From Imperialibacter sp. EC-SDR9 (GTDB lineage: Bacteria; Bacteroidota; Bacteroidia; Cytophagales; Cyclobacteriaceae): a DNA stretch of 35,033 nucleotides. The notes under the pieces were generated by a model, which was given only the letters and a program-made list of their open reading frames with translations, ran no database searches and was not told where the DNA came from. This document shows positions 22,120 through 27,970 of the stretch, piece after piece (within the stretch, counting starts at the first letter, position 1; each line of letters opens with the position of its first letter). The position numbers were made by a program, and so were the translations under genes. The stretch spans positions 1-35,033 of the forward strand of contig NZ_LR701616.1 in assembly GCF_902498805.1 (NCBI RefSeq), written 5' to 3'.

Positions 22120-22812
22120 CTAAGACAGGTTGTTATACTGCCTAATAAGCACATTCAATGCCTTTACAGTTTTGCTGAAAGGCTCCATTCCCTTTTTCAC
22201 CACGTGGTAGGCCGCAATGTGCTCGCACAACTCGTAGTAGGCCGTTATCGCTTCCAGCCGCTTGGTGCGAATAGCGTCAGGCGATGCTGCACTCATTTCG
22301 CCACTGCGGGCCTGGTACTGCTCATCGAAGGCATTGTTATCCGCTTCCAGGGCTTTTGCCCAACCTTCCAGCTTCAGCGCTGCCACGGCCGCTTTCAGCA
22401 CGGGCTTTGTTTCCCATTCTTTCAATATTTTTCTGATAGAAGCCGTTTCGCTGGCGTAGTTCTCCCTGGCAATGGCCTCTCCACCACAATCTTGCAAATG
22501 ATGACTGAGCTTTTCGGCGCTGCGAACGGTGCCCTCATCAAAATGATTGGTAAGTGCATTAACATACATAATGATGCCGGTAATGGCCCGGTCACGGCGC
22601 AGGTCGAGGAGGGCGAGGTTTTCAGTGTCTTTGAGTTCCTCCTTTATTTTGAACATCGAGTCGGCCTGGGTAACTATTTTTCGGAGTTTTTCTTCCTGCT
22701 TCTGCACCTTCAGGGCTGCCGGATCATTTTTGGCAACGATGCCCAGCGCTTCGTTCATGAACTTTGAAAAATCGCTGTTGGGCAGTGAGTTGATGTGAAC
22801 TTTGTCAATCAT
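22120..22812 (-). CDS. DUF6261 family protein, paralog 1
   Basis: A 230-residue helical protein with no signal peptide. It is collinear along its whole length with the product of the gene at 23595-24368: both open with MI(D/E)KxHI, and both have ARENYA(S/A)ETA, NAF(D/N)EQY, MSxASPDxxRTKRLEA and a C-terminal ALIxQYxNL segment. I recognise the family as DUF6261, a Bacteroidota protein of unknown function. The start is ATG 22812; the frame runs upstream 66 residues into the palindromic repeat, which is not coding. The conserved RTKRLEA region may be functionally important, but no catalytic signature is visible. Confidence 0.82.
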   Translation of the reverse strand: MIDKVHINSLPNSDFSKFMNEALGIVAKNDPAALKVQKQEEKLRKIVTQADSMFKIKEELKDTENLALLDLRRDRAITGIIMYVNALTNHFDEGTVRSAEKLSHHLQDCGGEAIARENYASETASIRKILKEWETKPVLKAAVAALKLEGWAKALEADNNAFDEQYQARSGEMSAASPDAIRTKRLEAITAYYELCEHIAAYHVVKKGMEPFSKTVKALNVLIRQYNNLS

Positions 22813-22902
22813 AAGTAGTCGAAACAATAGCTGATCGATAAATATACACAATGTGTTTTTATTTTGCTGAAAGGGGGGCAACGATAGGGTAAAACTCATC
22901 CG

Positions 22903-23519
22903 ACCACCAAAGCCTCCATAACACGCCGTCACTCGCAGTGTAGCGATAGCGGAACGGAGAAGCCTCCCACACCTTGTACTGTTTTCGGAACGGGTTACTG
23001 CCATCATCACGGGGATCCCGTTCCGGCGTCGGGTTCCACGTCGGCTCCCTACTTCGTCACCATCGACATGACGTTGGCGTGGAAAGGGTGGCTGTGCTAA
23101 TGCAGAGCTTTACCCATGCCGCCTTACCACCAAAGCCCCCATAACACGCCGTCACTTCGCAGCGTAGCGATAGCGGAACGGAGAAGTCCCCCAAACCTTG
23201 CAGTGGTTTCGGAACGGCTTACTGCCATTCCCATGGGGATGCCTCGCTCCTTCGTCGCAATCGGCATGACGTTAGTGTGGAGAGGGTGGCTGTGCTCATG
23301 CTTCGCCTCAAGTATTTTGCCTTACCACCAAAGCCTCCATAACACGCCGTCATCTCGAAACGTAGCGTAGCGAAGTGAGAGAGCCCCCTGAGGATGGCAG
23401 AGTTTTCAAGACGGGTTACTGCCATTACCCGGGGGATGTCGTTCCGGCGTCGGGTTCCACGTCGGCTCGCTCCTTCGTCGCCATCGATATGACGTTCTTA
23501 TGGAAAGGGCGGTTGCACT
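22903..23519. repeat. Cluster of three palindromic intergenic repeats (copies 1-3)
   Basis: Three related units begin with ACCACCAAAGCC at 22903, 23126 and 23324 (spacings 223 and 198 bp). Each reads left to right: CCATAACACGCCGTCA, a variable left arm with AGCGGAACGGAG or similar, a central ACTGCCAT...GGGGAT, a right arm, and ATGACGTT with a GGTGGCTGTGCT-like tail. The ends form an imperfect CGTCA/TGACG inverted repeat. The right arms of copies 1 (23020-23047) and 3 (23441-23468) share an identical 28-bp block starting GTTCCGGCGT; copy 2 lacks it. The cluster fills the gap between two DUF6261 paralogs. Confidence 0.85.
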
Positions 23520-23594: not shown

Positions 23595-24368
23595 TCATTC
23601 CGCAGCAGTTGTCTCCTGTGCCACGTCCGCTTCTTCCTCCTCTTCCTCACCGGCATCGCTGCGGCCCTTGCGGCTGGCCAGCAGGTTGGTGTACTGACCA
23701 ATCAGCGCATTGACCTCCTTCACAGCTTTGCCGAAGGGCTCGGCGCCGTCCTCGAGGATGAAACGAGCGTTGATGTGTTTTTGCAGATTGATGTAGGCCT
23801 CCGCTGCCTCCAGGCGCTTGGTGCGCAGGGTGTCGGGCGAGGCATCGCTCATTTCGGTGTTGCGCAGCAGGTACTGCTCATTGAAGGCATTGTTCTCGCT
23901 TTCCAGGGCCATTTGCCATTCCTCTAGACCCAGGGCCTTGATGGCAGCCTTCAGGTCGGCCTGGGCGGCCCAGTCTTTTAATATGCTTTTGATAATGGCC
24001 GTTTCGGCGGCATAGTTCTCCCTGGCCACCGCTCCGCCGCCGTAGCGCTTAAGGTGCTTGTAGAGAGTTTCCGCATGCTGGGCCATGGCCTTTTTGGGGT
24101 GGTTGGTCATGCCGTTGGCAATTTGCGTGAGGCCCGAAATGGTTTTGTCACGGCGCTGGTCGAGCTCGGCCAGCTTTTCGGTGCCCTTAAAGCCCGTTTT
24201 CACTTTGAAGAGCGCATCGGCTTCTTTGATCACCCGGCGCAGCTGGTTGGCCTGTTTTTCTACCTGCAGGGCCGCTGGGGTATGTTTGCCTACAATGCTC
24301 AGCACATCGTTGATGAACTGAGAGAACTCGCTGTTGCGCAGCGCAGCAATGTGGATTTTTTCAATCAT
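23595..24368 (-). CDS. DUF6261 family protein, paralog 2, with acidic tail
   Basis: A 257-residue cytoplasmic helical protein, the paralog of the product at 22120-22812; the two align without large gaps over about 225 residues. Distinctive shared blocks are VARENYAAETA, NAFNEQY and ASPDTLRTKRLEA. This copy has an extra C-terminal tail of about 25 residues that is strongly acidic (GEEEEEEADVAQ), absent from the other copy. The function is unknown. It starts at ATG 24368, has its own terminator, and its upstream region is AT-rich with a CCCTCC/GGAGGG hairpin at 24404-24418. Confidence 0.82.
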   Translation of the reverse strand: MIEKIHIAALRNSEFSQFINDVLSIVGKHTPAALQVEKQANQLRRVIKEADALFKVKTGFKGTEKLAELDQRRDKTISGLTQIANGMTNHPKKAMAQHAETLYKHLKRYGGGAVARENYAAETAIIKSILKDWAAQADLKAAIKALGLEEWQMALESENNAFNEQYLLRNTEMSDASPDTLRTKRLEAAEAYINLQKHINARFILEDGAEPFGKAVKEVNALIGQYTNLLASRKGRSDAGEEEEEEADVAQETTAAE

Positions 24369-24649
24369 AAGATTTAAAAAGTTTAAGTGAATAATACTTA
24401 TGACCCTCCGCAGGAGGGGTTTTCAATAACATTATAGTAAAAAATTTCATTGTATCAATATGTAATTTATTGAAAATACATGAATCATCCGTTTTTATGA
24501 ACATATGTTAATAATAACGGAATAAATCAACGATGAGCATTTCATAAAATGGTAGGCATAGGGCCATGCACTAGTGCGAGGGGTCATTAGAGAAAAATTG
24601 ACAGGCCCCACGATCAGCAGGGCCTTCATAGAAATAGGAGAATGCCAGC
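24369..24649. other. AT-rich intergenic region with a GC-rich hairpin
   Basis: No gene is seen. A compact inverted repeat CCCTCC-GCA-GGAGGG lies at 24404-24418, with GTTTT following on the plus strand. On the minus strand it would be in the 5' leader of the DUF6261 gene if transcription starts upstream of it. The stretch 24420-24540 is notably AT-rich and is likely to contain the promoter; no specific box is convincing. Confidence 0.4.
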
Positions 24650-24873
24650 CGCAATGTTGCGATGGGTCTGCTCAGCTTGAGCAAGGCCGCAGCAATGTTG
24701 TTTTGCATTTGCTCAGCTTGAGCAAGCTTGCCGCAGCATTGTTTTGCGTTTGCTCAGCCTGAGCAAGCTTGCCGCAGTATTGTTTTGGCTTTGCTCAGGT
24801 TGAGCAAGGCTGCTGCAGACTTGTTTTGGCTTTGCTCAACTTGAGCAAAGCTGCCGCAAGTGTGCAGGGGGTT
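24650..24873. repeat. 41-bp tandem repeat array of conserved hairpins
   Basis: Five palindromes TTGCTCA-NNN-TGAGCAA recur with an exact 41-bp period; the TGCTCA positions are 24669, 24710, 24751, 24792 and 24833. The 7-bp arms are identical in copies 2-5, while the 3-base centre varies (GCT, GCC, GGT, ACT). Copy 1 differs only in its first base (CTGCTCA). The linker contains GCCGCAG and TTGTTTTG, and copies 2-3 carry GCAAGCTTGC, itself a perfect palindrome. A partial linker lies before copy 1 (about 24650-24668). The period is not divisible by three, so this is not a protein repeat. It sits about 220 bp upstream of a small secreted-protein gene. Confidence 0.92.
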
Positions 24874-25089
24874 GATAGTGAGGGGATTAGGGTTGAGGGG
24901 GTTTTAAGACAGGTCGTTCGAGGTAAGTTGGGCCATCTCGTACCTATTTTTTGGTATATTCTAAGTTTGGAGGTAATAGAATTAGTTTTATTGAGGGGAT
25001 TGAGTCATTTTTATATGTCTCCTGATGAGAGACATAATGGGAGTATGGATTTCGTTCATATTCGGATGTTGGCGGTAATCATCGTAGTA

Positions 25090-25665
25090 ATGAAGTATTT
25101 CCTTTCGTTCATTCTTACCATTTCTTTTTGCGTGGTTTCATACTCACAAGAGGTAGACTATGGCATCCATTTCAATAGACTTGAGCGACTGGCTGATTCG
25201 GTTTCGATAGAAGTCTGCACATCAAAAAAGAAGGACGTAGTGGAATCCTATGGGCGGAACTACTATCCTCTGTCTCAACGAGGTTGGGGTACTAACTCTT
25301 TGTATTACGAGAAATTGAATCTGACGTTTTATTATGATGAGGATGAAATAATATTTATGATTACAATTGGTGAAAAGGCAAAGGCAGTTTACTATCAGGA
25401 GTCCAAAAATATTGTCTTAGGAGTTACAGAGTTTAGATACATTATTCTGGACAATGAATCGATAAAAGGGGACTGGAGCACTTCACAAGGCTCGATGAAG
25501 GACACTTATTCATTTGCCGACATTTCTTTTGATATTCCTCGTAAAACACCATATGACACCAATGCTCCTAAAGTAACTGACCAACTGGAGCAGATGAAGT
25601 CACCTGTGGTGAGTATCTCATTAAAATGTAAGGAGAGGCATCCAAACACAAAGGATAGCTATTGA
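25090..25665 (+). CDS. Secreted hypothetical protein in the AT-rich island
   Basis: A 191-residue protein with a signal peptide (YFLSFILTISFCVVSYSQ). Not recognised. The mature part is mixed in charge, with two Cys (EVCTSKK and SLKCKER), a FYYDEDEIIFMITIG strand and a FADISFDIPRKTP segment, suggesting a small beta-rich domain. The reading frame is open back to 24769, but that stretch crosses the 41-bp array, so the ATG at 25090 is preferred. The coding sequence is clearly more AT-rich than genes outside 24.4-27.2 kb. The HEPN-like gene starts 34 bp after its stop and may be co-transcribed. Confidence 0.65.
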   Translation: MKYFLSFILTISFCVVSYSQEVDYGIHFNRLERLADSVSIEVCTSKKKDVVESYGRNYYPLSQRGWGTNSLYYEKLNLTFYYDEDEIIFMITIGEKAKAVYYQESKNIVLGVTEFRYIILDNESIKGDWSTSQGSMKDTYSFADISFDIPRKTPYDTNAPKVTDQLEQMKSPVVSISLKCKERHPNTKDSY

Positions 25666-26624: not shown

Positions 26625-26724
26625 AACATGGATACTATCATGCAAGGAGGCGCTCGCTCGCTTGGATTGTCTGCCACAAAGTATAATTTTATCAGTTGAG
26701 TGGCTAAGTGCTAGTTTAAAGGGA

Positions 26725-26833
26725 GTTGCATAAAATTACCACACTTATTTTTACCGCAGCCTTGGGTGCCATGCGGCCTCGAAAACTTGGACTACTATTA
26801 ACAGATGATATAAACGGGTAATTAAATTTCAAC
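26725..26833. repeat. Imperfect 109-bp inverted repeat preceding a small gene
   Basis: Left arm GTTGCATAAAATTACC (26725-26740) is partly complementary to the right arm starting GGTAATTAAATTTCAAC (26817-26833). A second stem CCGCA/TGCGG lies inside (26754-26758 and 26772-26776). The right arm ends two bases before the ATG of the next gene. The arrangement recalls cassette-type recombination sites, but the integron core-site consensus is not met. Confidence 0.35.
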
Positions 26834-27174: not shown

Positions 27175-27238
27175 TTATCTCAAATGCTCTGTCCGCTGTT
27201 CTTCTGCGAGCAGACCAACATTTGTGAATATCAATGTC

Positions 27239-27505
27239 CCCCGCTAGTCCGAGCAGCCACGCCTGCCAATAGCACTGAATGCTGGTGCGAGACTGTGTCT
27301 CGTACCATTAACGGTGTTCAGGCCTAGCGCAACCATGCCACCTTCCCGCCAAAGCCCCGATAACACGCCGTCATTTCGTAGTGAAACGGAGCCGACGTGG
27401 AACGGGATCTCCATGACCTACAGCTGAGCTTATGATGCTCACAGCCATCACCTGGGGGATATTTCACCCTTCGGGATTCGATATGACGTTGGTGTGGAGA
27501 GGGCG
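27239..27505. repeat. Direct repeat copy A (about 267 bp), containing a palindromic unit
   Basis: Starts CCCCGCTAGTCCGAGCAG and contains a GGTGCGAGAC-TGT-GTCTCGTACC hairpin (27284-27306), followed by a full palindromic intergenic unit from about 27347 (CCGCCAAAGCCCC...CGATATGACG). A second copy lies 466 bp downstream at 27705-27970 with scattered differences. No coding function is apparent. Confidence 0.82.
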
Positions 27506-27704: not shown

Positions 27705-27970
27705 CCCCGCTAGTCCGAGCAACCAGGCCCGCCAATAGCACTGAATGCTGGTGCGAGACTGTGTCTCGTATCATTAACGGTGCTCAGGCCTACCACAACC
27801 ATGCCGCCTTACCGCCAAAGCCCCGATAACATGCCGTCATTCGTAGTGAAACGGAGCCGACGTGGAACGGGATCTCCATGACCTACAGCTGAGCTTATAA
27901 TGCTCACAGCCATCATCACGGGGATATCTCACCCTTCGGGATTCGATATGACGTTGTTATGGAGAGGGTA
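27705..27970. repeat. Direct repeat copy B of the 267-bp unit
   Basis: Nearly the same as 27239-27505 at a constant offset of 466 bp, including the hairpin (27750-27772, with one changed base in the right arm) and the ...CACCCTTCGGGATTCGATATGACG end. It runs to about 110 bp before the alpha/beta hydrolase gene. Confidence 0.82.

Follow-up and report, generated by a model that had tools for sequence, protein, structure and literature searches.

Most of the DUF6261 genes examined in Bacteroidota have their own upstream tandem array, with a period of 41 or 42 bp and a sequence that differs from gene to gene. The array described here lies in a window of 35,033 nucleotides (the whole stretch of DNA that was analysed) from Imperialibacter sp. 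EC-SDR9, and it is one case of this general rule, in which a DUF6261 gene is accompanied by a private 41/42-bp array. We favor, tentatively, the reading that each array is a private, cis-acting, multi-site nucleic-acid partner of the adjacent DUF6261, probably bound as DNA and located upstream of the gene's own promoter. The features of the window on which the analysis is based are the following.

22120..23010, minus strand: second DUF6261 gene (DUF6261 family match)
23595..24368, minus strand: DUF6261 gene, 257 aa (PF19775, E 9e-33); 300 bp separate its start codon from the upstream array
24369..24644, minus strand: gap from the array to the DUF6261 start, where the promoter would be expected
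24645..24870, minus strand (DUF6261 gene sense): five 41-bp units in tandem, closed by a linker copy
24668..24684, no strand: dyad 1, CTGCTCA GCT TGAGCAA
24709..24725, no strand: dyad 2, centre GCT
24750..24766, no strand: dyad 3, centre GCC
24791..24807, no strand: dyad 4, centre GGT
24832..24848, no strand: dyad 5, centre ACT

In the window, TGCTCA begins at 24669, 24710, 24751, 24792 and 24833, giving five dyads at a step of exactly 41 bp. Tandem Repeats Finder reports the array at 24669-24859 (period 41, 4.7 copies, score 199), and the five dyads in strict period that an earlier note on this DNA had described are thus borne out. No second row of period 35-50 was found in the 35-kb window at a score of 40 or more. 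Read in the sense of the DUF6261 gene, the unit is a dyad TTGC-N9-GCAA followed by a 24-base linker; ahead of copy 1 stands a degenerate half unit, and behind copy 5 a copy of the linker. The 7-base arms TTGCTCA/TGAGCAA are identical in copies 2-5, as had been claimed, with the correction that copy 1 has CTGCTCA in place of TTGCTCA. The 3-base centres are variable but do not differ in every copy as the note had it, because copies 1 and 2 both have GCT. The array had also been placed in an AT-rich island; G+C is 0.425 over 24501-25500, and the AT-rich stretch (0.37-0.38) begins at about 25000. A protein-coding repeat, which the note had discarded from the period, was rejected here too, since 41 is not a multiple of 3 and the open reading frames across arrays look spurious, being short or low-complexity reads of the repeat. 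At gathering thresholds, Rfam gave two matches in the window and 13 related loci, neither of which touches an array.

The gene context differs from that first proposed. The array had been described as lying upstream of a secreted-protein/HEPN gene pair, but the gene to which it is linked, DUF6261, flanks it on the opposite side, and the HEPN label was unsupported in Pfam or NCBIfam, where the gene has sub-threshold matches to other families only. For the second DUF6261 gene of the window no upstream array was found, and its orthologue in the sister species (L140) likewise shows none. A ~90-bp repeat occurs at 26656-26803, beside the downstream gene pair, and dozens of its copies occur at 868-907 kb in the sister genome (L313, L314), spaced roughly 0.5-3 kb over about 40 kb and following a tyrosine-recombinase-like ORF (L313 6316-7446, by-eye reading). 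This series looks like a chromosomal integron-type cassette array, and the downstream pair of the window and a PIN-like gene (L007 527-922, by-eye reading) may be cassettes. A further intergenic repeat is present at 27232-27288 and 27705-27754, near the window array, and at L019 5732-5786, near an array of the sister genome.

Within the genus, arrays of this unit are few. A second array in the same genome, on contig C43 (L007 5661-5930), has six dyads and 71% identity to the window array. Among 98 relatives searched by blastn (own genome included), matches were found in two, the own genome and G001, which is the single other genome of the genus in the sample and carries two arrays. A covariance model of the unit, with 150 of about 2100 candidates scored per genome, found four arrays in these two genomes and elsewhere single matches with E above 1. 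The window array is considered beyond chance because there is a second array of the same period in its genome and there are two in the other genome of the genus. Relatives of the array were not found in plasmids and phages searched by blastn or in viral contigs searched with the 41-bp pattern.

Comparison of orthologous arrays bears on the possibility of a neutral satellite, for which the earlier note had looked to random copy-number change and decay of the arms. The C43 array has an orthologue in G001, with flanks 88-96% identical and best-aligned array pieces 75-81% identical, and the dyad count is six against four. One of the G001 dyads is fully compensated (TTGCCCA-AGT-TGGGCAA), one has one half changed, one is TCGCTCG/TGAGCAA and one has decayed. 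Between these two close species copy number varies and pairing is largely kept, so the expected change in copy number was found and the expected decay only in part. Neutral minisatellites would arise by slippage at hairpins, with template switching perfecting the palindromes. Quasi-palindrome correction is a mechanism able to create compensated arms without selection, and such an origin would agree with the differing copy numbers; we nevertheless regard it as highly improbable, on the periods and gene linkage given below.

Dyads of this class are spread over Bacteroidota. Scanning a genome collection for two copies of TGCYCRNNYYGRGCA at 41 bp returned 37 stretches, 33 of them titled Bacteroidota. 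This pattern fixes the period at 41, and therefore the 22 genomes from which these stretches come were rescanned allowing 23-53 bp; 71 of 74 dyad pairs were at 41 bp and three at 42 bp. The same 23-53 bp pattern was found in the own genome only among 395 evenly drawn genomes of the phylum. Dyad pairs in array loci number 244 at 41, 196 at 82 and 147 at 123 bp, against a mean of 3.4 per other distance, with some arrays counted twice in overlapping loci. At L057, L061 and L112-L114 the linkers differ strongly between units, and arms and period are constant. Selection on the dyads and their spacing, suggested earlier for the arms, is supported by the 71 of 74 pairs at 41 bp and by the period being kept where linkers have diverged. 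The stem position following TTGC is T, C, G or A depending on the array, with its Watson-Crick partner. Arms can also be mixed: L080 has five TTGCGC dyads and then five TTGCCC dyads in one register, and the dyads of L084 change from TTGCCCA to TTGCCGG within one array.

Other repeats were also noted. In one Bacteroidales MAG (L053 2219-2700, L083 4123-4204), TTGCCCA dyads switch to AAATACCAACTGGTATTT-type dyads; the linkers stay similar and the register is nearly unchanged. Most dyads of the Prevotellaceae loci L054, L063, L071, L072, L074, L075, L087 and L088 have one ATGC foot in place of TTGC and are imperfect at the outer end. Short arrays of period 22 are common in Prevotellaceae control stretches L248-L261 (16 rows in 400 kb, several palindromic by eye) and are a second repeat class without a known partner.

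All-against-all comparison of the open reading frames near arrays, counting groups present in three or more genomes, identified one protein family shared by five genomes including that of the window, DUF6261 (PF19775). Other shared neighbors were rejected; these were a prfC-like group (3 genomes), a thioredoxin-like group (4) and spurious ORFs over the arrays (11), all named by eye. DUF6261 is present in 18 of 24 array genomes, some of which have 20-40 matches (up to 40 in one), and in five of 247 evenly drawn genomes of the phylum, the own genome being counted in both samples. The other six array genomes lack any match to DUF6261, and three of these, G499, G502 and G504, have arrays of 4-10 dyads.

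Upstream arrays were then counted from the side of the gene. The first set consisted of 117 DUF6261 genes, comprising 110 of the 160 matches in array genomes and all seven matches of the phylum sample outside the own genome. When the upstream row of period 35-50 with the highest Tandem Repeats Finder score was taken (minimum score 50), its period was 41 at 48 genes, 42 at 46 and 43 at one; the remaining 22 had no upstream row, and six of these have less than 700 bases of flank. Two of the seven phylum-sample genes had an upstream array. Genomes of the first set had mostly been chosen through 41-bp arrays, and therefore an order-level draw was made, in which 45 of 392 genomes carry DUF6261, three of them already among the array genomes. 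At the best locus of 27 others, with a row threshold of 40, an upstream array was found in 19 (period 41 in 15, 42 in four); there was one downstream array, and seven loci had none. In total, 114 of 144 DUF6261 genes have an upstream tandem array, with period 41 in 63, 42 in 50 and 43 in one, and 30 genes have none. The consensus units of 110 of the 114 arrays fail to match the dyad pattern by which the genomes were found, and rows of 41 or 42 on the downstream side occur only at L150, L210, L218 and L280.

In 20 control stretches of 20 kb from three genomes, the rows of period 35-50 were five at 41 and two at 44; the 41 rows fall at two places, one of which shares its unit with a DUF6261-linked array. 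Of 37 DUF6261 loci, 14 have chains of at least three dyads at step 41 and six at step 42; the other steps between 30 and 60 gave no such chain. A neutral satellite predicts a spread of periods, but the best upstream row is 41, 42 or 43 in all 95 first-set loci that have one, and the only other upstream rows of period 35-50 in the order draw belong to one separate A-rich stretch (L271, read as periods 48, 56 and 64). Such an origin also leaves the gene linkage unexplained, as well as the co-variation of inner length and period described next. Among the matches listed in the literature on 41-bp or 41-nt Bacteroidetes repeats, P. gingivalis repeats and Prevotella minisatellites, a link between DUF6261 and arrays is not described; DUF6261 itself is mentioned once, in one listed paper.

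Array units of different genes are mostly unrelated. Same-strand similarity was above 0.7 in 10 of 3486 pairs of consensus units, and in nine of these the proteins are at least 70% identical. DUF6261 paralogues about 80-85% identical can have unrelated units (the L172/L173 pair, 92% in a clipped alignment, was left out of this comparison). Within a single array, the units resemble each other from end to end, with matches of 65-97%, and because of this the linkers are not acquired spacers in most arrays; a CRISPR-like array was rejected on this comparison of units. Perfect consensus dyads exceed base shuffles at the 5% level in 38% of the 114 arrays and are not significant in 62%. Among the 33 arrays with stems of 7 or more, the loop is 3 or 4 in 29. 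Of the 114 units, 49 contain TTGC (12.0 in shuffles) and 59 contain GCAA (23.4 in shuffles); the two are 3-12 bases apart in 28 units (0.6 expected), and in the order draw in three of 19 units (0.1 expected).

The clearest regularity is between period and dyad. Among 25 arrays with TTGC-N9/10-GCAA, all with distinct inner sequences, nine inner bases are found in 14 of the 16 with period 41, and ten in all nine with period 42 (Fisher p 2.7e-5). One of the two period-41 exceptions, L169, has a consensus of 42 letters, and in nine TTGC/GCAA occurrences the inner length takes other values in the range 0-20. Inner length thus shifts with period, and therefore the gap to the next dyad is 24 bases in both classes. 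Looser, stem-based testing of the period link gave p 0.001 when stems of at least 7 were used, and p 0.14 with stems of at least 6 once similar stems had been removed.

The earlier note had offered both a cooperatively binding regulator and a tandem-hairpin RNA; on the sequence evidence we lean weakly to DNA over RNA. A period of about four helical turns speaks for DNA. In the 40 arrays whose stems reach at least 6, Watson-Crick pairing beyond the core stem is 0.40 against 0.24 in shuffles, and G-U pairing in the same arrays is 0.063 against 0.070, which is no gain. Purely Watson-Crick outer pairing of this kind would fit DNA symmetry better than RNA pairing. The main alternative, somewhat unlikely in our estimate, is that the array is transcribed into a tandem-hairpin RNA bound by DUF6261, each unit supplying a stem, a tri- or tetraloop and a 24-nt linker; such an RNA could work like a TIGR stem-loop array or the repeat RNA of a type III antitoxin, with linkers as guides or sponges. 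Loops of 3-4 and a constant 24-base linker are natural for hairpins, and inner stem positions take all four pair types. Stem changes within arrays, read in gene sense, include 50 single G-U, 26 single A-C and 62 other single changes, and of the double changes eight keep pairing and two do not; the excess of G-U over A-C points to RNA and away from DNA binding. The arrays are also A-rich in gene sense: the skew averages +0.138, compared with +0.071 in the flanks, and is positive in 67 of 95. However, no more than 37 of 95 arrays have a gene-sense strand that gives a better fold than the opposite strand, and on the given strand of 40 dyad chains the asymmetry is unclear, with G-T mismatches leading in 14, A-C in 11 and the others tied. 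The strand-specific counts of G-U and A-C are contradictory, and therefore RNA is not claimed.

Promoter position also bears on the nature of the arrays. The motif TANNTTTG, which we take to be a promoter-like motif of Bacteroidota, occurs 30 times on the sense strand between array and start codon (11.1 kb, 84 loci) against 4.4 expected, and four times on the other strand. Before the array it occurs 10 and 20 times on the two strands in 20.2 kb. In the first set the motif thus sits on the gene side of the array and not ahead of it, which counts against a transcribed array. Thirteen of the 30 matches come from one genome, and the order draw showed no such enrichment (3 found, 2.3 expected; 17 loci). 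The motif is absent from the window gap 24369..24644.

Type III toxin-antitoxin systems (ToxIN) have a repeat array upstream of a protein gene, private to the locus. DUF6261 loci resemble them in having tandem repeats directly upstream of the gene, here at 114 of 144 genes. Unlike ToxIN, DUF6261 is predicted to be all-helical, with no nuclease family listed, and the promoter motifs of the first set lie between array and gene; for a type III promoter, expected before the repeats, the observations are that TANNTTTG is enriched after the array and not before it in the first set and is not enriched in the order draw. TIGR-Tas systems are a second comparison. Two Tas clades have tandem stem-loop arrays with variable palindromes, and for one of these, with a TasA that has no nuclease, expression and processing of the array have been demonstrated, which is a precedent for an RNA (PMC12045711, in part). 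Like DUF6261 loci, these systems place tandem, variable but consistently palindromic units beside a protein, which has a coiled-coil region and in one case no nuclease (PMC12045711, in part). Tandem variable palindromic units were found in DUF6261 arrays as well, the dyad being significant in 38% only. DUF6261 differs from TIGR-Tas in that no Nop is among the Pfam families listed, the array is upstream of the gene and the period is 41-42. In gene sense, box C was found in three of 114 units (1.6 shuffled), box D in 15 (15.8 shuffled) and both together in none; on the other strand the counts were one, 13 and none. The lack of box C/D enrichment and of Nop weighs against an RNA of this type.

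The AlphaFold2 model of DUF6261 (pLDDT 93.6) is all-helical with ten helices, and the predicted shape is elongated. Foldseek found no PDB or BFVD match below E 0.001, with the best 50 of 805 PDB matches listed, and the best match in a PDB sequence search was cytochrome b562 (E 0.019). PADLOC, PHROGs and NCBIfam searches of a few DUF6261 proteins gave nothing convincing, the best match being Csm6 (E 0.003). When 50 DUF6261 proteins were compared with Pfam (E up to 0.05), there was no Nop, transposase or ToxN-like endoribonuclease among the 25 of 32 families listed. The first 220 residues of 103 family proteins have a median pI of 6.2 and are not basic on average; the first 240 residues of the window protein have pI 9.2 and are basic. 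Calculated charge does not mark the family as nucleic-acid binders. Several points stand against DUF6261 as a DNA binder: the predicted model has no known DNA-binding fold, paralogues about 80-85% identical can have unrelated units, arms can be mixed within single arrays (L080, L084), the dyad is not significant in 62% of arrays, 30 of 144 genes have no array and six array genomes have no DUF6261.

With the solo array at 50.9 kb of Hoylesella marshii (G500) as query, the array of one DUF6261 gene in that genome was recovered at 93%, together with four more solo places at 85-97% and one at 73%. The solo elements L292, L294 and L295 have a common 5' flank, two 41-bp arrays and a common 3' sequence, and a portion of that 3' sequence recurs immediately after the DUF6261 gene of L293, where it is 88% identical to L292 over 291 bases. 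These elements look as deletion derivatives would, which speaks for mobility or recombination, or for common sites of a single binder. As a separate observation in this species, a second, different 41-bp array adjoins the first at L292 1753-1833, L294 1671-1956, L295 1804-2048 and L298 1600-1762.

RAYT/REP systems have gene-linked palindromes with dispersed relatives in the same genome. DUF6261 and its array could be a REP/RAYT-like or MITE-like element, mobile or satellite, with solo arrays as non-autonomous derivatives and the array recognized for spreading as single-stranded DNA hairpins; we consider this unlikely. Besides the G500 elements, it would accommodate the 20-40 DUF6261 matches of some genomes and the window segment at ~23.47-27.70 kb (array, adjacent DUF6261 gene and downstream pair), which has no match at the syntenic place in G001. 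DUF6261 arrays are unlike RAYT/REP in their exact tandem period and in that the adjacent gene is DUF6261, with no transposase among the families listed; a foot tetranucleotide of the RAYT/REP type was looked at in the TTGC and GCAA counts given above. Homologous recombination between repeats could spread arrays without a transposase, and the upstream position, the invariant period and the unrelated units of each gene are unexplained by mobility alone. MITEs of Porphyromonas gingivalis offer a parallel. PgRS/464 MITEs contain 41-nt tandem direct repeats, and strain W83 has 41-, 23- and 22-nt repeats (PMC4596501, in part). Like DUF6261 arrays, PgRS/464 has 41-nt tandem direct repeats in Bacteroidales, with about 10-20 element copies; unlike them, these repeats are MITE parts without matches outside the species, and the sections cited report no hairpin-geometry rule or link to a protein family (PMC4596501). 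The BrickBuilt MITE minisatellite likewise forms intergenic tandem arrays in Bacteroidales, but its 23-nt units lie inside a MITE with leader and tail (PMC4596501, in part).

The preferred reading, a DNA site array bound by DUF6261, would work as follows. Each unit would offer one two-fold symmetric site, and the spacing of sites would be held at about four turns of the helix; wherever TTGC/GCAA half-sites are recognizable, an invariant 24 bases separate one site from the next. DUF6261, or a complex with it, would bind the repeated sites as DNA and assemble along them; on the array it would control its own gene, and it could act on solo arrays elsewhere. Linkage, upstream position, fixed period, dyads in part of the arrays and solo arrays of the same unit in one genome are direct observations, from which we infer DUF6261 as the binder, DNA as the bound form and regulation or local DNA organization as the outcome. 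More doubtfully, DUF6261 and its array may be a new kind of Bacteroidota protein-nucleic-acid system, in which a cognate helical protein reads an array that diversifies fast and is nearly free in sequence but fixed in geometry (in the clearest cases a 7-bp stem, a 3- or 4-base loop and a 24-base linker). Each of up to 40 paralogues per genome would then keep an orthogonal array, and arrays would possibly be guide or identity RNAs, or self-recognition sites in genetic-element conflict. Overall, we place the mechanism between a DNA site array, held tentatively, and an RNA hairpin array, for which we see a smaller chance, with mobility, less probable again, as a further component.

With this work DUF6261, an uncharacterized protein family, gains a concrete candidate partner. 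The arrays raise the question of what measures 41-42 bases and a 24-base gap yet leaves the sequence free, and why each gene copy has its own array. The findings may bear on the 41-nt repeats of Porphyromonas gingivalis, for which the sections cited give no function (PMC4596501). As RNA, the arrays would represent a new tandem-hairpin system outside the Nop world; as DNA, they would offer a new means of building cooperative, self-specific sites.
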